Source: Sulfurimonas aquatica
Lineage (GTDB): Bacteria > Campylobacterota > Campylobacteria > Campylobacterales > Sulfurimonadaceae
Length of the DNA stretch: 64,000 nucleotides
NCBI RefSeq assembly: GCF_017357825.1
Contig: NZ_CP046072.1
Coordinates: 992,001 to 1,056,000, forward strand
Direction: 5' to 3'
In this document: piece by piece, positions 37,387-58,386 of the stretch
Numbering within the stretch: the stretch's first letter is position 1
Layout of the letters: each line of letters opens with the position of its first letter
The notes under the pieces: model-generated
Told to the model about the DNA's origin: nothing
The model's input: the letters and a program-made list of their open reading frames with translations, nothing else
Databases searched by the model: none
Program-made: the position numbers and the translations under genes

Positions 37387-38070
37387 ATGGAACTATGTGT
37401 AGCCTTAGATTTACCCACAAAAGAAGAAAACTTAGCGTTAATTGAAAAAATTAAAGATTACGATGTTTGGCTCAAAGTCGGACTTCGTACCTACATCCGT
37501 GATGGTGAAGATTTCCTAAAAGCCATTAAGCAAATAAATCCAGATTTTAAAATATTTTTAGACTTAAAACTTTATGACATACCAAACACTATGGCTGACG
37601 CTGCTGAGTCTATCATGGGTTTAGGTGTAGATATGTTCAATGTCCATGCAAGTGCTGGTAAACGCGCTATGCATACTGTAATGGAGCGTTTAAGTAGATA
37701 TGATAGTCGTCCTATTGTTTTAGCCGTTACAGCTCTTACATCTTTTAGTGAAGAAGAGTTTCAAGACGTTTATGAAAATAAGATAGCATCTAAGGCAGAT
37801 CAGTTTGCAAAAGACGCAATGGATAGTGGACTTGATGGCGTTGTATGTTCAGCTTATGAGTCTAATTCTATTAAAAATATAACTTCAAAAGAATTTATGA
37901 CTTTAACTCCAGGCATAAGACCGTTTGGTGAAGACTCAGGTGATCAAAAACGCGTGGCGGACGTTGCCTTTGCTAAAGAAGCTTTGGTTGACTTTATAGT
38001 AGTTGGTCGTCCCATATATAACGCAGAGAATCCTTCTGAAGTGGTAGAAAAAATTTTAAAACAGCTTTAA
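37387..38070 (+). CDS. pyrF: Orotidine-5'-phosphate decarboxylase
   Basis: The 227-residue TIM-barrel enzyme makes UMP from OMP in the last step of pyrimidine synthesis. The catalytic Asp-Lys-Asp array is visible in FLDLKLYDIPNTMADAA, and the phosphate-binding loop in TPGIRPFGEDSGDQKR and VVGRPIY. The start at ATG 37387 places MELCVALDLP at the N-terminus, which matches the family. Its stop overlaps the stop of the convergent LapG-like gene by 4 bp. Confidence 0.97.
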   Translation: MELCVALDLPTKEENLALIEKIKDYDVWLKVGLRTYIRDGEDFLKAIKQINPDFKIFLDLKLYDIPNTMADAAESIMGLGVDMFNVHASAGKRAMHTVMERLSRYDSRPIVLAVTALTSFSEEEFQDVYENKIASKADQFAKDAMDSGLDGVVCSAYESNSIKNITSKEFMTLTPGIRPFGEDSGDQKRVADVAFAKEALVDFIVVGRPIYNAENPSEVVEKILKQL

Positions 38071-38720
38071 AGGTTGTTTTTCACTTTTTCTTCTAGTTCT
38101 TCAAACTCTTTAGCCCTGTCTGCCACCTTAAGAAGATTCAAGTTCTTGGATAGCTTGAAGACTCCGGTAGAGTTTATGAAGTACTCTGCTTGTAAATCAT
38201 GGCGTTTATCTAAAGGAAGTATCTTAAAACTCAAATTATCTAAAATTAATGGAGAACTGCACTGTGTTTTAAAATAACTCAAAACCATATGGCTCCCACC
38301 TTTAAACTTCTCTTTTACAACAGTGATAAATAGCTTTTTGTCATCAAATCCAAGTTTTATAAGCGTGTAGTATTTAATAATCACATAATCTTCGCAATCC
38401 CCATAACCTACAGTTAAAAACTCTTTTGGAGTAGCCCAATTATTCTCTTTATTTGTAATGATATCATCGTATTGCGGGAGTAGTCTATTGAGATAGACAT
38501 TTACGGCTCTTAGTTGCTTCTCTTTAGAATAACTTGTAAAGAGTTTGATTTTTTTTGAGTAGTCGATTACTCTATTTTTAGCTATTTTACTCTTTTTTTG
38601 AATATGTGATATTTCTATATTAGTAAATGATGGGTATTCACTTGAGAATAAAATAGTACTAATTAGAAGTATAAATAAATTTTTAATAACTTTGCCTTTT
38701 ACTCTTTTGAGTATTGTCAC
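38067..38720 (-). CDS. LapG-like transglutaminase-fold cysteine protease (BTLCP)
   Basis: The 217-residue protein has an N-terminal hydrophobic signal sequence (about 12-26, ending SS) and a bacterial transglutaminase-like cysteine protease domain. The catalytic triad is visible: Cys in VGYGDCEDYVIIKYYTL, His in GGSHMVLSY and Asp in LILDNLSF. LapG-type periplasmic proteases cut surface adhesins under control of the c-di-GMP receptor LapD. No LapD-like or RTX adhesin gene is adjacent. The gene diverges from tRNA-Ser. Confidence 0.85.
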   Translation of the reverse strand: MTILKRVKGKVIKNLFILLISTILFSSEYPSFTNIEISHIQKKSKIAKNRVIDYSKKIKLFTSYSKEKQLRAVNVYLNRLLPQYDDIITNKENNWATPKEFLTVGYGDCEDYVIIKYYTLIKLGFDDKKLFITVVKEKFKGGSHMVLSYFKTQCSSPLILDNLSFKILPLDKRHDLQAEYFINSTGVFKLSKNLNLLKVADRAKEFEELEEKVKNNL

Positions 38721-38782: not shown

Positions 38783-38872
38783 GGACAAGTGGGTGAGCGG
38801 CTGAAACCACATCCCTGCTAAGGATGCGTATGGGTAACTGTACCGAGAGTTCGAATCTCTCCTTGTCCACCA
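38783..38872 (+). tRNA. tRNA-Ser (anticodon GCU)
   Basis: The acceptor arms GGACAAG (38783-38789) and CTTGTCC (38862-38868) pair fully and are followed by ACCA, so CCA is encoded. The anticodon loop CTGCTAA gives anticodon GCT at 38817-38819. A long variable arm (GCGTATGGGTAACTGTACC region) and TTCGAATC in the T-arm confirm a class II serine tRNA reading AGC/AGU. A -10 box lies 15 bases upstream. Confidence 0.97.
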
Positions 38873-38921: not shown

Positions 38922-40490
38922 CTATTTTTCCAAGAGCAACTCTTTGATAAGTTTTATGCTTTTTTCACTATTTTGTTTTTGAAGCTGTTCAGTTAATATT
39001 TCCTCTCTCAAACTTTTATTATCTATAGTGGCAATTGTTTTTAATGCAAGATTTTTGACTTTGATACTGTTTGAATTTAATGAAGCTTGTATTTCATCTA
39101 AAAAATTTTTAGCTCCTGCATTTTGCATAGAGAGTAGTATGTTTTTTTCTTTTGACAGTGACGTTGCGCTGGCATACTCTGAACGTATGTAACTTACTAT
39201 AGCCTCTTTATTTTGTTCATCTTTTGCATACCTTGAAAGCGCTAACAACGAAGTGTCAGACTTGTCGTCATTTAATTCATCTCCTCTGGTGTCACTTATG
39301 CCAATAAGTGTCTCTATAGTTTGCACCGACGGTTTAGAAATGTCTCCTAAGGCTATAATAGAGCGGATTTTATTTATGTGTCTAGTTTTATCATCTACTG
39401 CAAGTTCATTTAGAAGATCTTCTGCTTCATCTGTATTTACTATAGGTAAAATTGCAATCATTCGCATGCTTGTTACGTCATCAGATTCTAAAATTATTTT
39501 TTTCAACTTGTGCGTTTCATTTGGAAAAGCTTTTATATACTGTTTGATATTTGTTAGAGTTGATTTTTCATCAATTTTTGTACTTAACTTTTCTAATGTT
39601 GTATGTGTCTGTATAAATTTTTTTTTAATATTATCATTTGATATTTTTTCAAATATATTAATGTCTTTTTGTTCTAGTAAAGTAAATTCGGCAAGAAGTG
39701 TTTTAATGTCTTTTTTTTCTTTATAGATTTTTAATGATTGGTCTATGCTTTGAGGAATCTTCTTAAGAAAGATAATATTTTTATTTTTTGCAAACCGATT
39801 TCCTTCTTCATCCAATAAAGTGATACTCTCAGATAGCTCTAAGCGTTTAAGCCAACTACCTTTAGCATCCACAGTAGCTTTTGTTATTGAATTAGTTACG
39901 TTAGCGCCATACTCTTTGCTAGGGTTTATAACTTGGGTATATCTACTTTTTTGTTTTTCTATGGAGTTAGAAATTTTTTTATAAAAAACGTCATAAACAC
40001 CTATTGAGTCTTTTTGCTCTATTTTATAACTTTGTTTATCCAAGTTAATTATTTCAAGAGAGTATATTAGTTGAAGTAATCCAGCAAAATTTTCAATTTT
40101 TCCTGGAAACTTAAAATCTAACACTTTACCATCTAAGCTATATTTTACTAAAAACATCGATTGGTAATAGGGCCTTAATAGATCTAATACATTTTTGTCG
40201 ACACCCACTCCCTCTAAATTAAATGAGGATAACTCAAATAGACTCCATATATAGTTTTCGCTTTTTTTCAAAATTCTCATATTTAAAAGTGCGTCAACTT
40301 TATACTTATATGAAATATCTGTTGGTATTAAATCACTCTTTAGTAGGATAGAATCCTGTGAAAAATTGAGCTCATATACAGAATCATTATCATATGTATA
40401 AGCATACAAATTACTTTTTGAGTTTGTAAAAAATAAATATAAGATAAGTATAGATATGAGACTTATGGCAAGTAAAAATATTTTTTTCAT
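38922..40490 (-). CDS. Vitellogenin-N-like plus helical-repeat secreted or anchored protein
   Basis: The roughly 522-residue protein has an N-terminal signal or anchor (MKKIFLLAISLISILILYLFF). A beta-rich region (about 30-250) includes YAYTYDNDSVYELNF, a segment LLRPYYQSMFLVKYSLDGKV and FPGKIENFAGLLQLIYSLEI, then a D-x-x-GVYDVFYKK. This pattern resembles the N-terminal domain of vitellogenin-type lipid-transfer proteins. The rest (about 280-520) is alpha-helical with HEAT-like repeats (e.g. IRSIIALGDISKPSVQTIETL). I chose the ATG at 40490, 4 bp after the upstream stop; an ATG at 40514 overlaps that gene. Function is unknown and the family link is by pattern only. Confidence 0.5.
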   Translation of the reverse strand: MKKIFLLAISLISILILYLFFTNSKSNLYAYTYDNDSVYELNFSQDSILLKSDLIPTDISYKYKVDALLNMRILKKSENYIWSLFELSSFNLEGVGVDKNVLDLLRPYYQSMFLVKYSLDGKVLDFKFPGKIENFAGLLQLIYSLEIINLDKQSYKIEQKDSIGVYDVFYKKISNSIEKQKSRYTQVINPSKEYGANVTNSITKATVDAKGSWLKRLELSESITLLDEEGNRFAKNKNIIFLKKIPQSIDQSLKIYKEKKDIKTLLAEFTLLEQKDINIFEKISNDNIKKKFIQTHTTLEKLSTKIDEKSTLTNIKQYIKAFPNETHKLKKIILESDDVTSMRMIAILPIVNTDEAEDLLNELAVDDKTRHINKIRSIIALGDISKPSVQTIETLIGISDTRGDELNDDKSDTSLLALSRYAKDEQNKEAIVSYIRSEYASATSLSKEKNILLSMQNAGAKNFLDEIQASLNSNSIKVKNLALKTIATIDNKSLREEILTEQLQKQNSEKSIKLIKELLLEK

Positions 40491-40494
40491 TAGC

Positions 40495-42726
40495 TTACTC
40501 ACAATTATCAGCAATTGGAATAGAGAAAAGCGTTTGAGATTTATCTAATATTTTTGACGTATATTTTCCTCCACTCCAGTTAGCAAAATCTTTTCTTCTT
40601 GTTCTATTTTTCCAATTTGTCTCTGTTGGTTCTGAAAATTTATATGGACCATAGTAGTTTGCATATGCGTATATTTTGCCATTTAACGTATTGATATAGT
40701 TGGTTATATTCTCATGCAATCTACCATCTATACCAACTATATAGTCCCCTTCATCAACCAATACAAGTGAGCCGGTTATAGTGTTTGTAAATCTTTCAGA
40801 TAGAAGCCATAACTCTCCTCCAATGCCTGCGCTATAGTCCACATCTACAGTACAACAGCTAATAGCGGCACCGACTCCAGCCTCTAAATAAGCACCTATA
40901 TAAGCATTTGGCTCAATCATTGCAGTAATAGAAGTCATCCCGTCAAGCCCAATTGAAGCATCAAATCCTATTCGTGCTTCTGCGCCAGCTCTAACGACTA
41001 CAGGAATTATGGAAAACATGATAGTCTGTTCCCTTTCTATGTTTTTTCCAACTCTCATACTCTGATCTAAACTTACTAAAGAAATATTTGTTGTAGATGA
41101 AGTTTGATACGTTTTTAGTTTCTCTTTCGTTGCCTTGTAAGCTTTTTGTTTTAAAAGAGTTGCTCTTGAAGTGACAGTGGAAGTCGTTGTATTACTATCT
41201 GTGCTTGTGTTTGTATCTGTTGTATTTACGTCACGAATTGAAGTCTTAGGTAATAATTTTTCTTCTTCAACGCTTAGTGTGACAATAGGGGTAGTCAATC
41301 CGCTCACTTGCGCTAATGAGTTACTTTTTGAGTAAAAATTATTTCCTAATGATGAAAGCTCGATGTCGTAGCCTGTATCTTCAAAGGAGCCTGGCTCTAA
41401 ATCGGCTGTAGCTTTAACTCTTAAAATTCTAAATTTTGTATCAGAGAATCTCCTGACTCTGATTGAAGCGTAAGTTTTTGCATGTAAACCACTCACGTCT
41501 AAATATGCTCGTCCTAGAAGGTAGGCACCTGCTCCAAATCTTCTTCCGTATTTATATTTTTCATAAGTTTTTTCATAATTTAATTTTTTTAATCCACATT
41601 CTGAGTCTGCTGATGACGCAAGTCTCGCTGCAGATGGTTGATAACTTGGAGATAGATTCTGTGACTGGTATATACTTGCTATTGAGTTAACCAACTCTTG
41701 AGATAAAGTTATATTAAAAGGGCTAGAAGTTTTATTGTTTTGGGTGTTTAAAACTCCCTCATCATCAGATGATATTTCAATATTTATTTTTCCCTCTATT
41801 GTGTTTCCAACAAAGATGTTTACATTTTTAATTATATCATCTACTAATTTTTTTAAGTCTTGACTGCTTAGAGCTAATTGCAGATCTATATCTTTTTCTT
41901 CATTAGCTTCTATATCACCTATATTCACTTCTTCTAAAAACGTATAGTTGATGTCTAGCGACTTTGTATCGTTATCTTCCGAGTCAAATGTTAGTGAGCT
42001 ATTATTTTCATTTATGGTTAATATAGGAACATCAATACATTTTCCATAAAGTTCAACACATGCTTTTATTTTAACATTTGAAGCACTCTTTATATTTGAC
42101 CTCACTTTTATTGTCGCACTGGCATATAGTGGTTCATCAAGAGCATAGAGTGTAAGACCAGCGTCAATAAGGGCATTTAGATTATCGGTAGAATTGATTT
42201 CACTTGAGAGTATAGTATCATTTTCTCCATCAGTTCCACCATGTTCTAAATCTAATGTAAAAGAGACTAACTCAAGCTCAGGCTTATTGTCATCCTCAAC
42301 AATCTCAAAACTATTTGTTGAGTATGTGCCTATCACTTTTTGGCTATTACAAACTTCTATGTTTAACTTATAGGTGCTTAAGTTTATGTCTTCTGGAACT
42401 GTAAAGTCATATAAATACTTGTTTGTTCCTTCTTTAATTTCAGCTAAAGATTCAGAATGAAACCATACAGTTGAATTGTTTTTATTTAAATCCTCTAAAG
42501 CAAAAAATAAAAAGATAGCTGAATCATTGTTATCTAAAGAGTAATTAGATGATGAATACAAATCTAACTCTACGCTTTGAATAGTACTTTTATACATTAA
42601 ACTAGAAGATAATTTAGAACCCAATATGTCAAAATCATCATGAGAAGTTTGATTTGTACCTCCATCTGTAGTACAACCTGTAATTATTAAAATTACAAAA
42701 AAATATAAGAATAATTTTATTAACAT
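40495..42726 (-). CDS. Large lipoprotein, unknown function
   Basis: The 743-residue lipoprotein has the signal peptide MLIKLFLYFFVILIITGC with Cys18 as the lipid site. The ATG at 42726 has a strong AAAGGAG 7-8 bases upstream and is preferred to one 9 codons earlier. The N-terminal half is beta-rich and Ser/Asn/Asp-rich with Ig-like spacing (about 50-400). A short Thr/Ser/Asn-rich linker follows (about 515-530, NTTDTNTSTDSNTTTS). The C-terminal part is Gly/Ala-rich and beta-strand-like (EAGVGAAISCC, with a Cys-Cys pair). It forms a two-gene operon with the vitellogenin-like gene. No family is recognised. Confidence 0.6.
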   Translation of the reverse strand: MLIKLFLYFFVILIITGCTTDGGTNQTSHDDFDILGSKLSSSLMYKSTIQSVELDLYSSSNYSLDNNDSAIFLFFALEDLNKNNSTVWFHSESLAEIKEGTNKYLYDFTVPEDINLSTYKLNIEVCNSQKVIGTYSTNSFEIVEDDNKPELELVSFTLDLEHGGTDGENDTILSSEINSTDNLNALIDAGLTLYALDEPLYASATIKVRSNIKSASNVKIKACVELYGKCIDVPILTINENNSSLTFDSEDNDTKSLDINYTFLEEVNIGDIEANEEKDIDLQLALSSQDLKKLVDDIIKNVNIFVGNTIEGKINIEISSDDEGVLNTQNNKTSSPFNITLSQELVNSIASIYQSQNLSPSYQPSAARLASSADSECGLKKLNYEKTYEKYKYGRRFGAGAYLLGRAYLDVSGLHAKTYASIRVRRFSDTKFRILRVKATADLEPGSFEDTGYDIELSSLGNNFYSKSNSLAQVSGLTTPIVTLSVEEEKLLPKTSIRDVNTTDTNTSTDSNTTTSTVTSRATLLKQKAYKATKEKLKTYQTSSTTNISLVSLDQSMRVGKNIEREQTIMFSIIPVVVRAGAEARIGFDASIGLDGMTSITAMIEPNAYIGAYLEAGVGAAISCCTVDVDYSAGIGGELWLLSERFTNTITGSLVLVDEGDYIVGIDGRLHENITNYINTLNGKIYAYANYYGPYKFSEPTETNWKNRTRRKDFANWSGGKYTSKILDKSQTLFSIPIADNCE

Positions 42727-42887
42727 CTGAAACTCCTTTACCCTATATACCAATATTATAAAAATAATTAGGTTATATAATTATTAATCAGTAACTATTT
42801 TTGTAAGATTTTTTCAATTTAGAAGTCTACAAAATAAATTCATTTGTTCGATATATCAGTATAACTCTATAGATAAAAGGATTTATC

Positions 42888-52063: not shown

Positions 52064-52810
52064 TATAGAATATTTTAATGTGATAAATGACGCAAAAAGT
52101 ATAGCTCCTAAATATATACCATAATTATTAACAAGGTTCTCCAAGGTTAATAAAATTAAAGTTGGTAGAGGGAGTTCAGCACCTAACTCCTCAAAAATGG
52201 ATTTAAATTGTGGTACAACATATGAGATAAGAACTGTAAAAGCTACAGCCATAGCTATCATTACATTTCTTGGGTATGCCATAGCTTTTTTAAACTTTGT
52301 AATATTTGAGCGAATCTCCTCTAGCATATCAGCTAAAGCATATAATGATTGATCTAGATTACCAGTTTTCTCACCTAATAGAACCATTGCTATTGTTAAG
52401 TTCCCAACTTCAAACCTAAAGTTTTCCATTGATGCTGAGAGAGAATATCCAGAGTTAATATCATCTGCTAGTTTAGAAAATACTGTTGTTAAAGCTTCAT
52501 CATCACTTGCATCAGCGATTTGGTTAAGCGAATCGTGTATAGATATACCTGCATTTGTCATAACTGCAAGTTGTCTCACAGATGCAATTAGAGCATCTGG
52601 TTTAATTTTTTTCTTTCTAATATTTTTAAGTAGATTTTTTTTGAATCTTTCAAATTGCTTATCTAAGGGCTCTTGTCCCTCAGCCACTTTGATAATAATT
52701 CCAGAAAATTTTAACTTAGCATAGCTAGTCGCTTCTTGTTTATTCTCAGCATAGAGACCCTGCTGTTCTTTTTTACCTTTGGTTAAGACTGTGGCAACAA
52801 AATATTTCAT
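52064..52810 (-). pseudogene. mshG: MshG/GspF-type inner-membrane platform protein, 3' end lost
   Basis: The frame runs from ATG 52810 (overlapping mshE by 4 bp) to the insertion-sequence edge at 52064, then 12 foreign codons to a stop at 52025. The retained 249 residues hold an N-terminal region and the first T2SSF domain (about 70-195, LAVMTNAGISIHDSLNQIAD and LGEKTGNLDQSLYALADML). Two membrane helices follow (about 190-210 and 225-248). The family is about 400 residues with a second T2SSF domain and a final helix, which are missing. Pilus assembly should fail unless another copy exists. Confidence 0.88.
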
Positions 52811-54543
52811 CCTTTAGCAACCTTGAGAATTTCTTCAATACTAGTAACACCATCAATAGCTTTTTGAATACCATTTTGAAAGATGTCTATAAAACCATCT
52901 TTTTTAGCCTGTTCAAGCATCATGTCTTTAGAAGCACCTTTTGCTATTAAAGATGAGAGCTCTTCTGTAATATTTAAAACTTCACAAATCATCTCTCTTC
53001 CCATATATCCACTATCACCACACTCTTTACAGCCTGCACCCTTGTAAAATCTAGTGCCTTCAGGAATGATGCCGTCTATCTCTTCAAGAACAGTCGCTGA
53101 GAGTTCCTCTTCCACTTTACAATGCTTACATATTTTTCTTACAAGTCTTTGTGCTTGAATAGCAACGAGTGCCCCACTAATGAGGTAGTGCTCAATTCCC
53201 ATATCAGCCATACGAGGTATAGCACTTATAGAGTCATTTGTATGCAAAGTGGATATAACTAGGTGACCGGTAAGAGCTGCTTTAATGGCAATTTCAAGTG
53301 TTTCTTGGTCGCGAATTTCACCTATCATTATCTTGTCAGGATCCTGTCTTAATATGGAACGCAGTGCATCTGCAAAACTAAGTCCAACTTTAGCATTTAC
53401 TTGTACTTGTTGAATAAGGTTCATTCGATACTCTACAGGATCCTCAACGGTAATGACTTTATCTTCAACATTTCTTAGCTCATTAAGTGCACCGTATAAG
53501 GTTGTAGTTTTACCACTACCAGTAGGTCCAGTTACCAAGATAATACCATAGGGAGCAGCAAGCCCTTTAAGAAGTTTTTGATAACTAACTGAGTCCATTC
53601 CGGCATCTTCAAGTCTCACAAGTGCTTTTTCTTTATCTAAAACACGCATAACAATAGACTCACCATAAAGAATAGGTAGTGTAGAGATACGAAAGTCATA
53701 TTCACGTTTTCCTACAGCTGTAGAAAAACGGCCATCTTGAGGTTTTCTTTTCTCTGCTATATCTAAGTTAGCTAAGAGCTTAAGTCTAGATGCTAAAGGT
53801 GGATAGATGTTTTTTTCAAATATAAATGTTTCTATTAGTTTTCCATCAACTCGTCCACGTACGACACAGTTTTTTTCAGTTGGTTCTATATGTATATCAC
53901 TTGACCTCGCATTAATACATGTTTTTAAAATAACATCAATAAGTAAAAGAATAGAAGATGCCTCTTGCTGCTCTTCTATAGAATTGATAGAATTTAGTTC
54001 ATCTTGTATCTTCTTAACGAGATCCTTGACACTATCCTTAAGTGCAATTTTATATAAGTATGAAGCAATCTGCTTTTTTGTAGAAAGAGCAATTTTTACA
54101 ATTTTTCTTGGAAATAGCCTCTGCATAGCCTCTTGAGCATCTATATTAAGAGGGTCATGAAATGCAATCGTTATGCTCATTTCATCTTGTGAAACAGGAA
54201 TTACATTAAATTTTTGAAGTTGAGCCAAGGGCACTTTACTTGTCAGGTTATAATCCATATCTATTGAATCTAAGTCTACAAACACCTGATCAAGTTCGTG
54301 AGCAAGTTTTTCTAAGACTACTTTTTCATGGATATAATCATAATTGTCAATAATAGAGAGGTCATAAACACCATCTCTTACTTTTTGAACAATGTAACGA
54401 ACAAGCCTATCCATAGTCATAAAACCAGAAAGAGTAATATCACGTAGTATTAAATTTTCGCTGATACCTTTTGCTAAAAGTCTATCAACTTGGCCCTTCA
54501 TAATTGAGCCTTCAGCGAGTAAGTCTGTTGTTATTCTATCCAA
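52807..54543 (-). CDS. mshE: MSHA pilus assembly ATPase MshE (GspE/PilB family)
   Basis: The 578-residue hexameric ATPase drives pilus extension. It has N-terminal MshEN-type domains (about 1-150) and an ATPase core with Walker [16 protein letters not shown], Asp box EDPVEYRMNLIQQVQVN, Walker B RSILRQDPDKIMIGEIRD and a His box in ALTGHLVISTLHTND. The zinc tetracysteine region is CKHC...GCKECGDSGYMGREMICE. The N-terminal part of MshE in other species binds c-di-GMP, which would tie into the signalling genes of this window. It looks intact. Confidence 0.95.
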   Translation of the reverse strand: MDRITTDLLAEGSIMKGQVDRLLAKGISENLILRDITLSGFMTMDRLVRYIVQKVRDGVYDLSIIDNYDYIHEKVVLEKLAHELDQVFVDLDSIDMDYNLTSKVPLAQLQKFNVIPVSQDEMSITIAFHDPLNIDAQEAMQRLFPRKIVKIALSTKKQIASYLYKIALKDSVKDLVKKIQDELNSINSIEEQQEASSILLLIDVILKTCINARSSDIHIEPTEKNCVVRGRVDGKLIETFIFEKNIYPPLASRLKLLANLDIAEKRKPQDGRFSTAVGKREYDFRISTLPILYGESIVMRVLDKEKALVRLEDAGMDSVSYQKLLKGLAAPYGIILVTGPTGSGKTTTLYGALNELRNVEDKVITVEDPVEYRMNLIQQVQVNAKVGLSFADALRSILRQDPDKIMIGEIRDQETLEIAIKAALTGHLVISTLHTNDSISAIPRMADMGIEHYLISGALVAIQAQRLVRKICKHCKVEEELSATVLEEIDGIIPEGTRFYKGAGCKECGDSGYMGREMICEVLNITEELSSLIAKGASKDMMLEQAKKDGFIDIFQNGIQKAIDGVTSIEEILKVAKG

Positions 54544-54552
54544 AAGAAACTC

Positions 54553-55095
54553 CTACCAGTATACATGGCGTTTTATAAGAATTGTATCATAAAATTCTTC
54601 TATAACTATCTTATTTAATTTATAGTCTTTAGTAAGATATAATTTATAACTTAGTTTAGTGTCGTTAGGATCCTCAAAAAGATAAAATTTTCTAGGTAGA
54701 TGCTTACCAATCTTTGAGTACATATCAAAAATTTTAGATAATATATACTCGGTTGTAGGAAGAGAAAAAGTCGATAAATCATAATTATCAATTAATGCAT
54801 GATAAAGTAGTTTTTTCTGCATCAGTATTACTGAGAAATATGCAGAGTTTGCTCGGGACTCTTTTGAATGTTTGAGTACAGCAGCGGGAACAGCTAGTCT
54901 ATCAATGTAGTCTGAGTATAGACAAGAAAATGCATATAAAGAGACGAACTCCTCATCTTTCTTATGTAGTTTAAAATTATCAAAACCTATACTACAAACC
55001 TTTTCATATTTTTCATTCTGATAGAGATCAAACATATCCTGTTTAATATCTGCATAAAGATTTATAGTTAATAAAATAAAAAGTATTATTCTCAT
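54553..55095 (-). CDS. Secreted protein of the MSHA locus, unknown function
   Basis: The 180-residue protein has a short signal peptide (MRIILFILLTINLYA) and a helical mature part (MFDLYQNEKYEKVCSIGFDNF) that resembles a TPR-like start, with Cys35 and Cys58. I do not recognise a family. Its start overlaps the mshN-like stop by 4 bp and it precedes mshE by 9 bp, so it is very likely part of pilus biogenesis. Confidence 0.55.
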   Translation of the reverse strand: MRIILFILLTINLYADIKQDMFDLYQNEKYEKVCSIGFDNFKLHKKDEEFVSLYAFSCLYSDYIDRLAVPAAVLKHSKESRANSAYFSVILMQKKLLYHALIDNYDLSTFSLPTTEYILSKIFDMYSKIGKHLPRKFYLFEDPNDTKLSYKLYLTKDYKLNKIVIEEFYDTILIKRHVYW

Positions 55096-55940
55096 TTAAA
55101 TTTTCCTGAGTGGATATCGTCAAGAAGTATTCTAGCACTACTTGATTGGGATGATTTTATATACTCCTGAAGAGTTTTAGTTGCCATATCTTTTTTACCC
55201 ATTTTAAAGAGTGATTTTGAAAATATAATCCAACTAGCTTCTATATCTTTATTTATTTTGTTAGTAATTAAAGAGTAGTTATATGCTTGGTTATAGTTAC
55301 CTAGTTCGTAGTATTTTTTAGCAACAAAAAGGCTCAAAGCAGGGTTGTTATTTTTTTTAAACCTTCTAATAATATCGTTAATATCATTTTGAGTATTTCT
55401 TTTTTGTATATTAATATGCTTAGGCTCTTCTTCTGTAGGTTTGTCTATCGTGGAAGTTTTAACTTTTGGAGTAATCTTTGTATCTACCTTTTTATCGGGT
55501 ACTATTTCTTTGATAGACTTTTCTTCTTGCTTTGGAGCTACAGTAACTACTTTTCTAGTTTCAGTAGGAGTATCATATGTAGGAGTACTTTTGTTGTAGT
55601 TATTATATGGTTGAATTGAACTTTGCATTTTTTTCATAAAATTTAAGGATGGCTCTAGTTGCACAGTTTTTTTATTTAAGGGTGCATTTACTTGCTCAAT
55701 TACTTCTTCTTTTTTAACCATAGGTGGTAGTTCTTTTTCTATGACAGGAAGCTCTATCTTTGTTATCTCTTCTTTAGTGGATGAAGTGATTTTGGTATCT
55801 ATTTTTTCTTTTGGATCAATAACAAAGATATAGAGTATCGAAGAAATTATGGTTAAACTCACAAAAATAGTTATATGAGGGATGAATGATTTGATCTTAT
55901 AGTGTAACCAACGTTTTTCTAGTTCAATTATATTAAGCAT
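55092..55940 (-). CDS. mshN: MshN-like TPR protein with N-terminal membrane anchor
   Basis: The 282-residue bitopic protein has one membrane segment at about 25-45, a Lys/Glu/Pro-rich periplasmic linker (about 50-190) and C-terminal TPR-like helices (about 195-275; ALSLFVAKKYYELGNYNQAYNYSL). This is the layout of MSHA biogenesis protein MshN. Its start overlaps mshM by 8 bp. The sequence is diverged, so the name rests partly on position between mshM and mshE. Confidence 0.65.
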   Translation of the reverse strand: MLNIIELEKRWLHYKIKSFIPHITIFVSLTIISSILYIFVIDPKEKIDTKITSSTKEEITKIELPVIEKELPPMVKKEEVIEQVNAPLNKKTVQLEPSLNFMKKMQSSIQPYNNYNKSTPTYDTPTETRKVVTVAPKQEEKSIKEIVPDKKVDTKITPKVKTSTIDKPTEEEPKHINIQKRNTQNDINDIIRRFKKNNNPALSLFVAKKYYELGNYNQAYNYSLITNKINKDIEASWIIFSKSLFKMGKKDMATKTLQEYIKSSQSSSARILLDDIHSGKFK

Positions 55941-56742
55941 TAATTAGACCTGTATGTATAGCAGACATTTCAATAATCTTATTTGAGACACTATCAGTTT
56001 TCAAAGAAGAGATTTTTTTTTCACTTTCATATATTGAATAAATGTCAAAAAGTGTATAGAGAAGTTTGTTGGTATCTCGATAATTACCATTTGTAATTTT
56101 ATATATCCTATTTACTGATTTCATTGTAAACATGTTAGCACTATCAAAACAGTTTGCTTTCATAAGTTTTTTTTGGATATATATTTTAAGTTCACTCACA
56201 GAAGCATTCTCTAGCTCAATAGTCTCCCATATTCTTGTTTGAAAATGCTCTTTTGCAATAATATCTTCTTTTTCAGTTTTATGAAGTGTTATAACAAACT
56301 TAATTGTTCTTGTGTCAGAGAGTAATCGTATTTTTTCCATCAAGGCTTCAGAGTATAATTGGGCTTCATCTAATAGAACCACGGGAATAGTTTCAACTTC
56401 TTTGGAATTAACAACTTTCATAAATTGAGTGAAATTAAGTTCACCACTATATTTAATATTAAAAATATCTTGGGCAAGAGTTTTGTAAAATTCACTCTCG
56501 TCTAAAATAGGAGTTTGGTAAAGGTAAACCTCTTGAGATGAAGATAGGTCATTATATAGTTTTGTTAAAAACATACTTTTACCAGTACCTGGCCTACCAT
56601 AAAGAAGTACCATTTTTAACGGTTTCTTTATGGAGTCTTTGAGGGATTGGTAAATTGTTGATACTCTGTCGAGTTGTATGTAGTCTTTAGCATTTACAAT
56701 ATCTAGAAATACATCTTTAGAATTTACAAAGATACTGCTCAT
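55933..56742 (-). CDS. mshM: MshM/ExeA-like AAA+ ATPase
   Basis: The 269-residue cytosolic ATPase has Walker A LYGRPGTGKSMFLTK and Walker B VVLLDEAQLY, followed by a sensor region KFVITLHKTEKED. The family (ExeA/GspA, MshM) assists secretin assembly through cell-wall remodelling, but this copy lacks the peptidoglycan-binding C-terminal part of ExeA. It sits between mshN and mshL, as in other MSHA loci. Confidence 0.85.
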   Translation of the reverse strand: MSSIFVNSKDVFLDIVNAKDYIQLDRVSTIYQSLKDSIKKPLKMVLLYGRPGTGKSMFLTKLYNDLSSSQEVYLYQTPILDESEFYKTLAQDIFNIKYSGELNFTQFMKVVNSKEVETIPVVLLDEAQLYSEALMEKIRLLSDTRTIKFVITLHKTEKEDIIAKEHFQTRIWETIELENASVSELKIYIQKKLMKANCFDSANMFTMKSVNRIYKITNGNYRDTNKLLYTLFDIYSIYESEKKISSLKTDSVSNKIIEMSAIHTGLINA

Positions 56743-56754
56743 ATATATATACCC

Positions 56755-58386
56755 TTACTTTTCTATAGATAATTTGTCTGAAGATTTCTTTGTCTCTTTT
56801 ATTATATTCGTAACAAACATATCCTCATCCAAACCTTCATAACCTAAGTCAGAAAGAGAAACAGAACTTTTTTCTTTCTGAATGATGTGTGGTTCTATTA
56901 TAATAACAAGTTCTTCTACTTGTTTGATTTTTTCTTCATACTTAAATAGATAACTAATAATAGGTATATCACCGAGAATAGGAACCTTATTCCCTTCATA
57001 TATACTTTTAGTATTAATTAAACCACCAAGGATAATTCTATTTCCATCTTTTACGGTTACCACAGAGGAGAGTTGACGACGATTTAAATCTGGTGGCATA
57101 TCTCTCCCTGAATTATTTGTAGTAGATATATCCTGTGTTGTCTCAGAAAGAGATGGATTGATCTTTAATGTTATCGTTTTATCATCAGATATTTCTGGAG
57201 TTATAGTTAATAAGACTCCCGCGAAGACAGATTGAACATTATCATTTTGTGTTGTCGCTGCAACACCTCCACTACTACCTTGTTGATTTGTCGCAGTTTG
57301 TATTTTATAAAAATACTCTGTACCAGCAGTAATAAGTGCTGGTTGATTATTTAAAGTTAAAACTTTTGGATTTGATATAGCACTTACATCACCTTGTGTT
57401 TGTAAAAATTTTATAACTTCATTTAAACTAGCAGTTGCTTTAATATTTACCATTTTAGAAACACCTTTTATTGTGTCTGCGGCAACTGCTAAAGTAGTTA
57501 TATCATTACCTGTAAATTCAGATACATTTTGGTGATCAATTGTATTTATACCAACTTCAAAGTTTTGAAGAGCATAAAGTTGCTTCCAATCAATACCGGT
57601 AGTTTCGCCTTCATTCATAGTAACTGAAAGTAATTGAACATCAATTAAAACTTGTAGTTGTACTTTATCTTGAAGTCTTTTTAGATATCCTTCAAATCTA
57701 TTCATCTGTTTAGATGTTGCAGTCACAGTAATTAAACCAGCATTTTTATTTATTATTGGAGCGCTTGCTTTATATGAGTCATGTGGACGATTTAGGATAC
57801 TTTGAAATTCTAAATCTAGAGCTTCCCAGAATTTTACTTCGTCTGTACTTTCAATCTTTATACCTGTTTGAGAGTTTGATGATGCTCCTGCTTGAGTTCC
57901 CATCATTCCGTTAGCCCCACCACCCATAGCTCCAGCAGTCGATGATCCGCCCATTGATCCATTCATCCCACCTTGTGGAGCAGCCGAAGAGCTTAATGTT
58001 ACATCAGTACTACCTGTACTTTTTCTTTGAGAAAGTATGTAATCAATCTCAAAAACTTTAGTAGTTAAATAGGAAATTTTTAATAAATTATCGACAAGCG
58101 TGTACGATAGGTTATTTTCTAGTAATATAATATTTAGAACTTCATCAATTGTTAGATTTTTTAAATTAGTTTTATTTAAATTAGTATTGAGAAATTTCTC
58201 TGCATTTGGATCAGTTACTATTATGCTAAAACCACACTCATCACTAAGTTGATCAATAAAGTCAATTATTTTTGTGTTTTTTGCAGAACTAATACTAAAC
58301 AGTTCATAAGAACAATCCGCAAAACTTGTAGTGGATAGCAGCAGTGTTAGTAGTGTTGTGTAAAGTTGTTTTTGCATATATTTCAT
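56755..58386 (-). CDS. mshL: MSHA secretin MshL (PilQ/GspD family)
   Basis: The 543-residue outer-membrane secretin has a signal peptide (about 1-23), an N0-type STN domain (about 35-110, IIDFIDQLSDECGFSIIV) and a Gly/Met/Ser-rich linker (about 140-172). A secretin N region follows, with the secretin core from about 240 carrying VLTLNNQPALITAGTEYFY, GVLLTITPEISD and the final VPILGDIPIISYLFKYEEK. It forms the pilus exit channel. The ATG at 58386 with AGGAACCATA upstream is chosen over one three codons later. Confidence 0.93.
   Translation of the reverse strand: MKYMQKQLYTTLLTLLLSTTSFADCSYELFSISSAKNTKIIDFIDQLSDECGFSIIVTDPNAEKFLNTNLNKTNLKNLTIDEVLNIILLENNLSYTLVDNLLKISYLTTKVFEIDYILSQRKSTGSTDVTLSSSAAPQGGMNGSMGGSSTAGAMGGGANGMMGTQAGASSNSQTGIKIESTDEVKFWEALDLEFQSILNRPHDSYKASAPIINKNAGLITVTATSKQMNRFEGYLKRLQDKVQLQVLIDVQLLSVTMNEGETTGIDWKQLYALQNFEVGINTIDHQNVSEFTGNDITTLAVAADTIKGVSKMVNIKATASLNEVIKFLQTQGDVSAISNPKVLTLNNQPALITAGTEYFYKIQTATNQQGSSGGVAATTQNDNVQSVFAGVLLTITPEISDDKTITLKINPSLSETTQDISTTNNSGRDMPPDLNRRQLSSVVTVKDGNRIILGGLINTKSIYEGNKVPILGDIPIISYLFKYEEKIKQVEELVIIIEPHIIQKEKSSVSLSDLGYEGLDEDMFVTNIIKETKKSSDKLSIEK

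Follow-up and report, generated by a model that had tools for sequence, protein, structure and literature searches.

Two adjacent genes of the locus

A 64,000-nt stretch of the Sulfurimonas aquatica genome (contig NZ_CP046072.1, positions 992,001 to 1,056,000; hereafter the window) contains two adjacent genes, here called A and B. We describe this pair and the probable resemblance of the B family to the module that opens the animal large lipid transfer proteins (LLTPs). Both open reading frames lie on the minus strand, and their order and coordinates agree with a first-pass annotation made from the letters alone (Table 1). A is a 743-residue lipoprotein with a Gly/Ala-rich C-terminus, and B, starting 4 bases past the A stop, has a hydrophobic N-terminus followed by a beta-rich domain and then a helical domain. 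The B motifs singled out in that annotation (LLRPYYQ, KYSLDGKV, LLQLIYSLEI and GVYDVFYKK) are all in the sequence in that order. The window genome holds a single B copy. No terminator-like site was found around the pair, and promoter-like sites there are at chance level.

Table 1 Features of the A-B locus in window coordinates. LLT, large lipid transfer; LLTP, LLT protein.
Feature	Position	Strand	Basis
Gene B, 522-residue LLT-module-like protein	38922..40490	minus	open reading frame, ATG at 40490
Hydrophobic N-terminal anchor of B	40431..40481	minus	hydropathy peak, no convincing cleavage site by eye
N-terminal beta domain of B, aligned with LLTP N-sheet	39729..40382	minus	hhalign, shuffles, weak structural comparison
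Helical domain of B, HEAT-like, aligned with LLTP helical domain	38925..39728	minus	hhalign, block shuffles
Asn465 of B, paired with conserved LLTP Asn (lipovitellin GNAGQP)	39120..39122	minus	profile alignment
Gene A, 743-residue lipoprotein, variable N-terminal part and conserved C-terminal domain	40495..42726	minus	open reading frame, ATG start at 42726
Shine-Dalgarno-like AAGGAG before A	42733..42738	minus	read from sequence
Lipobox cysteine codon of A (IITG-C)	42673..42675	minus	sequence and pattern
Gly/Ala-rich conserved C-terminal domain of A	40510..41181	minus	leave-one-out hhalign

B residues are numbered here on the 530-residue frame with a TTG start at 40514, not on the 522-residue ATG form. 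Export signals had been proposed for both proteins. That of A stands as a lipoprotein signal, whereas the B N-terminus resembles, by eye, an uncleaved anchor rather than a cleavable signal. By hydropathy and eye, the N-terminus appears uncleaved and membrane-anchored in eight of the ten B proteins described below.

Taken singly, the window proteins resemble little in the databases. A has no Pfam or NCBIfam match and no PDB sequence match better than E 0.25, even when searched with the A profile. B alone has no meaningful match in Pfam, NCBIfam or PDB sequences, where no relation to LLTPs is seen. Neither has a meaningful match in PHROGs or PADLOC, and a defence or phage role was dropped on that ground; the A protein of Pseudoalteromonas gives one weak PHROGs match (E 0.0067).

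Conservation and distribution of the pair

Ten distinct B genes were collected, namely those of the window, G041, G106, G109, G141, G433, G624, G627, G720 (cut by a contig end) and Pseudoalteromonas xiamenensis. Nine are in genomes of one order, and the tenth is on the P. xiamenensis chromid. All ten loci have an A-type gene as the immediate upstream neighbour of B, in the same orientation, with a spacing from an overlap of ~25 nt to a gap of 16 nt. The A profile matches 5 of 398 genomes of the order, and the B profile picks out those same five, the two 398-genome sets being presumably identical. The conserved pairing that the first-pass annotation had named as a check is thus borne out.

B relatives occur in 6 of 149 related genomes (counting G065, dropped below), in 4 of 397 genomes of a phylum sample, in 1 of 22 and 5 of 175 genomes of two families, and in the single genome searched of a third family. 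There is overlap between these searches, and the related-genome, phylum and order searches each count the genome of the window. The weak G065 match (E 9e-4, three stops) is attributed to chance; it overlaps another open reading frame of its locus (L019 8999-9607).

Scans of genome contigs with the window B and with the Pseudoalteromonas B gave no relative, and none was found in viral contigs or, with the Pseudoalteromonas B, in phages. Among plasmids, the window B found the Pseudoalteromonas chromid only and the Pseudoalteromonas pair found only itself, while the window A and the G106 B found none. The 24 plasmid records matched by the G141 A are not A relatives, as the matches fall on its hydrolase part. 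Because the pair is rare and scattered, with neighbour genes that differ between genomes, it probably moves horizontally.

Membership was examined by leave-one-out hhalign. The C-terminal domain of the window A matches the other nine A proteins at P 8e-28, and nine of the ten A proteins join the family at P ≤ 1e-5. For the B N-terminal domain, nine of ten join at P 1.3e-6 or better.

What the A relatives have in common is the Gly/Ala-rich C-terminal domain, and the N-terminal part varies. Seven A proteins start with a lipobox and three with a signal-peptidase-I-like sequence. The Pseudoalteromonas A has a weak CARDB-like part just under the Pfam cut-off, one relative has internal repeats, and the G141 A (L018 9385-13197) carries a C-terminal PGAP1/lipase-like extension, a PGAP1/DUF676-like alpha/beta-hydrolase with a GHSMGG motif. 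No Pfam family is shared at E 0.01 by even two of the ten. Upstream of the G433 pair (L024 13482-15452), two shorter frames look by eye like pieces of A; they may represent a disrupted additional copy of the gene or an error of assembly.

Profile comparison of B with animal LLTPs

The B family was compared using hhalign with LLTP sequences from PDB (lipovitellin 1LSH, apoB 9BD1, honeybee vitellogenin 9ENR and MTP 6I7S) and a chicken vitellogenin sequence entered by hand. When the full-length profile of ten B sequences is aligned to the LLTP N-sheet and helical domains, the match is collinear over 442 columns (prob 96.1, P 3.7e-9), running from B 45-512 to lipovitellin 3-520 at about 14% identity. 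Its score over matched columns is 69.5, compared with a maximum of 33.5 in 150 block shuffles.

Each domain contributes. The N-terminal domain alone gives P 5.8e-5 in local and 6.3e-7 in global alignment, collinear between the first strand and the Gly-x-Cys/Tyr motif. Its score over matched columns (36.6) was reached by none of 600 shuffles, the maxima being 19.8 in 300 column shuffles and 25.3 in 300 block shuffles, and the reversed control gives P 0.42. With thinner profiles (three B members fewer and LLTPs without MTP), the domain falls in the same place at P 0.063. The helical part alone matches the LLTP helical domain at P 1.2e-6, with a score of 48.1 that none of 100 block shuffles reached (maximum 24.9).

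The likeness to the two-domain order of LLTPs that the first-pass annotation had pointed out is supported by profile-profile comparison with shuffle controls and, weakly, by structure. The vitellogenin-like spacing of the N-terminal motifs stands as a property of the family profile; it is not detectable from the window B alone. When 137 open frames were compared singly with the LLTP N-profile, the top two were the B proteins of P. xiamenensis (P 3.4e-4) and G624 (P 0.015), which share the same register, and the remaining B proteins, including that of the window, are inconspicuous when taken singly. For MTP, bee vitellogenin and apoB, the match of each to the N-domains of the other LLTPs is at P 2e-7 to 2e-11, and therefore B lies further out than the LLTPs do from one another.

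Database profiles see mainly the helical part. In PDB, the ten-member B profile finds lipovitellin (1lsh_A) at E 0.0018 through this part, below twenty alphaRep/HEAT chains, and the seven-member profile does not list it at E 10. A search with the vitellogenin N-terminal profile had been suggested as a check, and its answer is divided: PF01347 exceeds the cut-off in three of the seven genomes or records tested (G106, G141 and G433), at helical positions only, but does not exceed its curated cut-off in the window B. These matches alone would not count, because they are confined to helices and PF01347 also matches in 2 of 14 control genomes.

Seven conserved B residues were checked. Five align with an identical residue of lipovitellin (Tyr47-Tyr5, Gly129-Gly89, Gly172-Gly135, Tyr178-Tyr141 and Asn465-Asn463) and two are not (Trp221-Ile and Leu356-Val). 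At the Asn465 position, eight of the ten aligned B proteins have Asn, G624 has Glu, and G720 has a gap near its cut end. We take Asn465 to be the probable equivalent of MTP N479. The lipid-binding C- and A-sheets that form the C-terminal part of LLTPs have no counterpart in B, which ends after the helical domain. Judged from sequence comparison, B quite probably resembles the LLT module, an N-sheet followed by a helical superhelix.

Structure models of B

AlphaFold models were built from the window letters only, as a single sequence with neither templates nor relatives. They are poor, with a mean pLDDT of 38.4 for full-length B and of 38.5 for the N-terminal domain (pTM 0.34). Foldseek with the low-confidence N-domain model found nothing under E 0.001, and lipovitellin ranked 37 at E 2.0. 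When this model was compared with 998 chains by VIA-align, MTP (6i7s_G) came first (Z 4.5, root-mean-square deviation 2.8, 94 residues) and lipovitellin 15th (Z 3.7, deviation 2.7, 92 residues). About two dozen rows, mostly unrelated, are within 1 Z of MTP, and the ties include OrfX1 and juvenile-hormone-binding protein.

The aligned region ends with model residue 140 (window residue 173) at MTP residue 169. This is one residue off the Gly172-to-Gly pairing of the profiles, if the 6I7S entry uses, as we presume, UniProt numbering. The best 50 rows for the full-length model contain no LLTP; they mostly place its C-terminal helices on unrelated superhelices. Because the models are poor, structural comparison serves as support and not as proof, and the likeness of the N-domain model to MTP and lipovitellin weakly supports the LLT-module relation.

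B as a possible escort of A

The constant A-B pairing, the B anchor, the A lipobox and the changing outer parts of A suggest that B is an escort or assembly factor of A. A and B would form a two-gene envelope module, in which B would be a periplasmic protein, usually held at the inner membrane via its N-terminus. It would consist of the two domains with which animal LLTPs begin, namely a beta-stranded N-sheet followed by a HEAT-like alpha superhelix, the lipid-cavity sheets that come next in animals being absent. The beta-rich C-terminal domain of A may dock on B in the periplasm, where B would keep this domain soluble or fold it. A would then move on as an outer-membrane or surface lipoprotein, and its variable parts, CARDB-like or, in one genome, a lipase-like domain, would do the outside work. 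MTP assisting apoB and membrane-anchored lipase foldase would be analogues of such a role. A and B probably touch each other, and that B is a dedicated membrane-anchored periplasmic escort or assembly factor of A is the reading we tentatively favour. The sequences show the pairing and order of the genes, the export signals and the family relations, whereas the role of B as escort, the destination of A and any part played by lipid are inferred.

A number of observations weigh against this reading. The contact between A and B is predicted only, and B could act alone, on lipid or on the envelope. No foldase or lipase-chaperone family in Pfam matches the window B (E ≤ 1) or the seven family members searched, and B appears cleaved and soluble in two of ten genomes. 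Two family members are weak, the G720 B (P 0.031) and the G433 A (P 0.005) by leave-one-out hhalign. Because one of ten reversed A sequences reached P 3.3e-4, the lowest of that control, a P value of about 1e-4 from hhalign does not decide a relation by itself. The LLTP profile is thin (five N-domain sequences, one of them entered by hand); when the hand-entered sequence is left out, the N-domain P becomes 4.8e-4 local and 1.1e-4 global, and the B N-profile against MTP alone gives only P 0.014. Against the LLTP helical domain, the ten single B sequences are weak (P 0.002 to 0.25), and profiles of three B members give 4e-5, 2.6e-4 and 0.029. Therefore, the LLTP signal needs the full B family.

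The same weakness bears on whether B is simply a HEAT-repeat protein to which an unrelated beta domain is joined, its LLTP likeness being a convergence of two alpha superhelices. HEAT_2 (PF13646) is the commonest Pfam match of the B family, found in six of seven members and not in the window B. Three HEAT proteins of related genomes and alphaRep match the B helices at P 4e-7 to 3e-3. The same proteins, taken singly, match the LLTP helical domain at P 0.03 to 0.72, hardly worse than single B proteins, and the confinement of PF01347 to helices and its occurrence in control genomes also favour convergence. At the profile level, on the other hand, a three-member HEAT profile gives P 0.36 against the LLTP helical domain, where the B trios and the whole B family do better, and the N-terminal domain, which contains no HEAT repeat, is also aligned in register with LLTPs.

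As the three HEAT proteins are closely related among themselves, setting their profile beside the B trios is not quite a comparison of like with like. Because single B proteins are barely better than single HEAT proteins, this control only suggests that B is closer to LLTPs than an ordinary HEAT protein is. For the same reason, we lowered our estimate of the LLT-module relation a little, from highly probable to quite probable, and raised that of convergence a little, leaving it quite unlikely.

Lipid carriage and surface display as other roles

If B is an LLT module, the pair could also be an envelope lipid shuttle, in which A and B bind or move lipid between membranes and the strand-rich domain of A is the lipid-holding surface. 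According to a report on MTP (PMC7444587), the N-terminal half-barrel and the helical domain come before the C-terminal domain, in which the lipid site lies, and N479, an Asn of the helical domain, bonds to the C-sheet of this site. The likeness of B to the LLT module would suit a shuttle, as would the lipase-like fusion of one A. Asn465, taken as the Asn that bonds the C-sheet in MTP, persists in B despite the absence of a C-sheet, and therefore another sheet may dock at this place. However, B ends where the lipid-holding part would begin, and the A C-domain has no match to the lipovitellin sheets (P 0.45-0.66, two LLTP sequences used). No obvious lipid-metabolism gene was seen among the window neighbours (five proteins with the pair scanned, others by eye). 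On balance, a lipid shuttle is rather unlikely.

A more specific form of lipid carriage is very doubtful. In this form, the A C-domain would supply the missing sheet, docking on the B superhelix near Asn465, at the site that the C-sheet occupies in MTP and lipovitellin; A and B would be a lipid-carrying LLTP split into two envelope proteins, and B would belong to a bacterial branch of the LLT module that either predates the animal family or runs parallel to it.

A surface or adhesion module, with A as a displayed adhesin-like lipoprotein and B as its scaffold or anchor, having no chaperone or lipid role, is unlikely. In its favour, A is a lipoprotein in most genomes, one A has a weak CARDB-like part, another has internal repeats, and a LapG-like protease gene, below the NCBI cut-off, adjoins the window pair. 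In G109, the next genes encode a clostripain-like peptidase and a giant RCC1/LamG protein. The neighbours nevertheless differ between genomes, and B has a membrane anchor of its own in most of them, with no recognised display signal.

Neighbouring genes

In the window, the gene of the LapG-like (Peptidase_C93) cysteine protease, below the NCBI LapG cut-off, is at 38067-38720 (minus), and a tRNA-Ser gene (38783-38872) lies between it and the pair. Upstream of A on the opposite strand, a very short, strongly acidic frame with many D, E and Y residues was noted by eye (42888-about 43030, plus). Farther away, 52807-58386 (minus) is a type II/IV-pilus-like or MSHA-like cluster, with a GspE/MshE-type ATPase (MshEN domain) and a secretin with Secretin_N_2.

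In G109 (L017 10667-19001), the pair is followed by the clostripain-like peptidase (Peptidase_C11), and the giant protein there has RCC1 repeats, LamG, Lcl_C and a weak RTX-like stretch. On the Pseudoalteromonas chromid (L025 10467-12827), ten small tandem genes lie beside the pair, eight of them of 222 bp and the outer two annotated as EF-hand.

Relation to known systems

B has the same order of N-sheet and superhelix as the animal LLTPs of PF01347 (Vitellogenin_N: 1LSH, MTP 6I7S, apoB and vitellogenin), aligns with them collinearly and has Tyr, Gly and Asn positions in common with them. Unlike them, it has no lipid-cavity sheets and no VWD match, is mostly membrane-anchored and is paired with an unrelated lipoprotein. 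Because the window protein fails PF01347 and B lacks the lipid sheets, B is not counted as an LLTP; we call it a bacterial LLT-module relative, and A a new partner family. HEAT-repeat proteins (PF13646, alphaRep) match the C-terminal helical repeats of B; they differ in that B has an extra N-terminal beta domain, and in that the B family profiles aligned to the LLTP helical domain, unlike the small HEAT profile.

Lif lipase foldases are membrane-anchored periplasmic proteins encoded directly downstream of their exported client. B is likewise membrane-anchored, would be periplasmic and is directly downstream of its presumed client, which in G141 has a lipase-like domain. It differs from Lif in matching no foldase family in Pfam, and nine of the ten A proteins have no hydrolase match there. 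The overall interpretation of the first-pass annotation is partly supported, through the LLT-module likeness of B and the conserved pairing; the lipid-binding or lipid-shuttling pair that it proposed is a conjecture.

The top-ranked open-licence PMC full-text matches, which exclude preprints, contain no report of a bacterial LLTP, which is weak evidence of absence. With A and B, a new conserved pair of bacterial envelope proteins would be named. A bacterial two-domain relative that lacks the lipid cavity would serve both as an outgroup and as the LLT module in minimal form, and whether the escort role or lipid carriage came first would become testable. Kinship with LLTPs would be unexpected in bacteria and may hint at the origin of the LLTP family.

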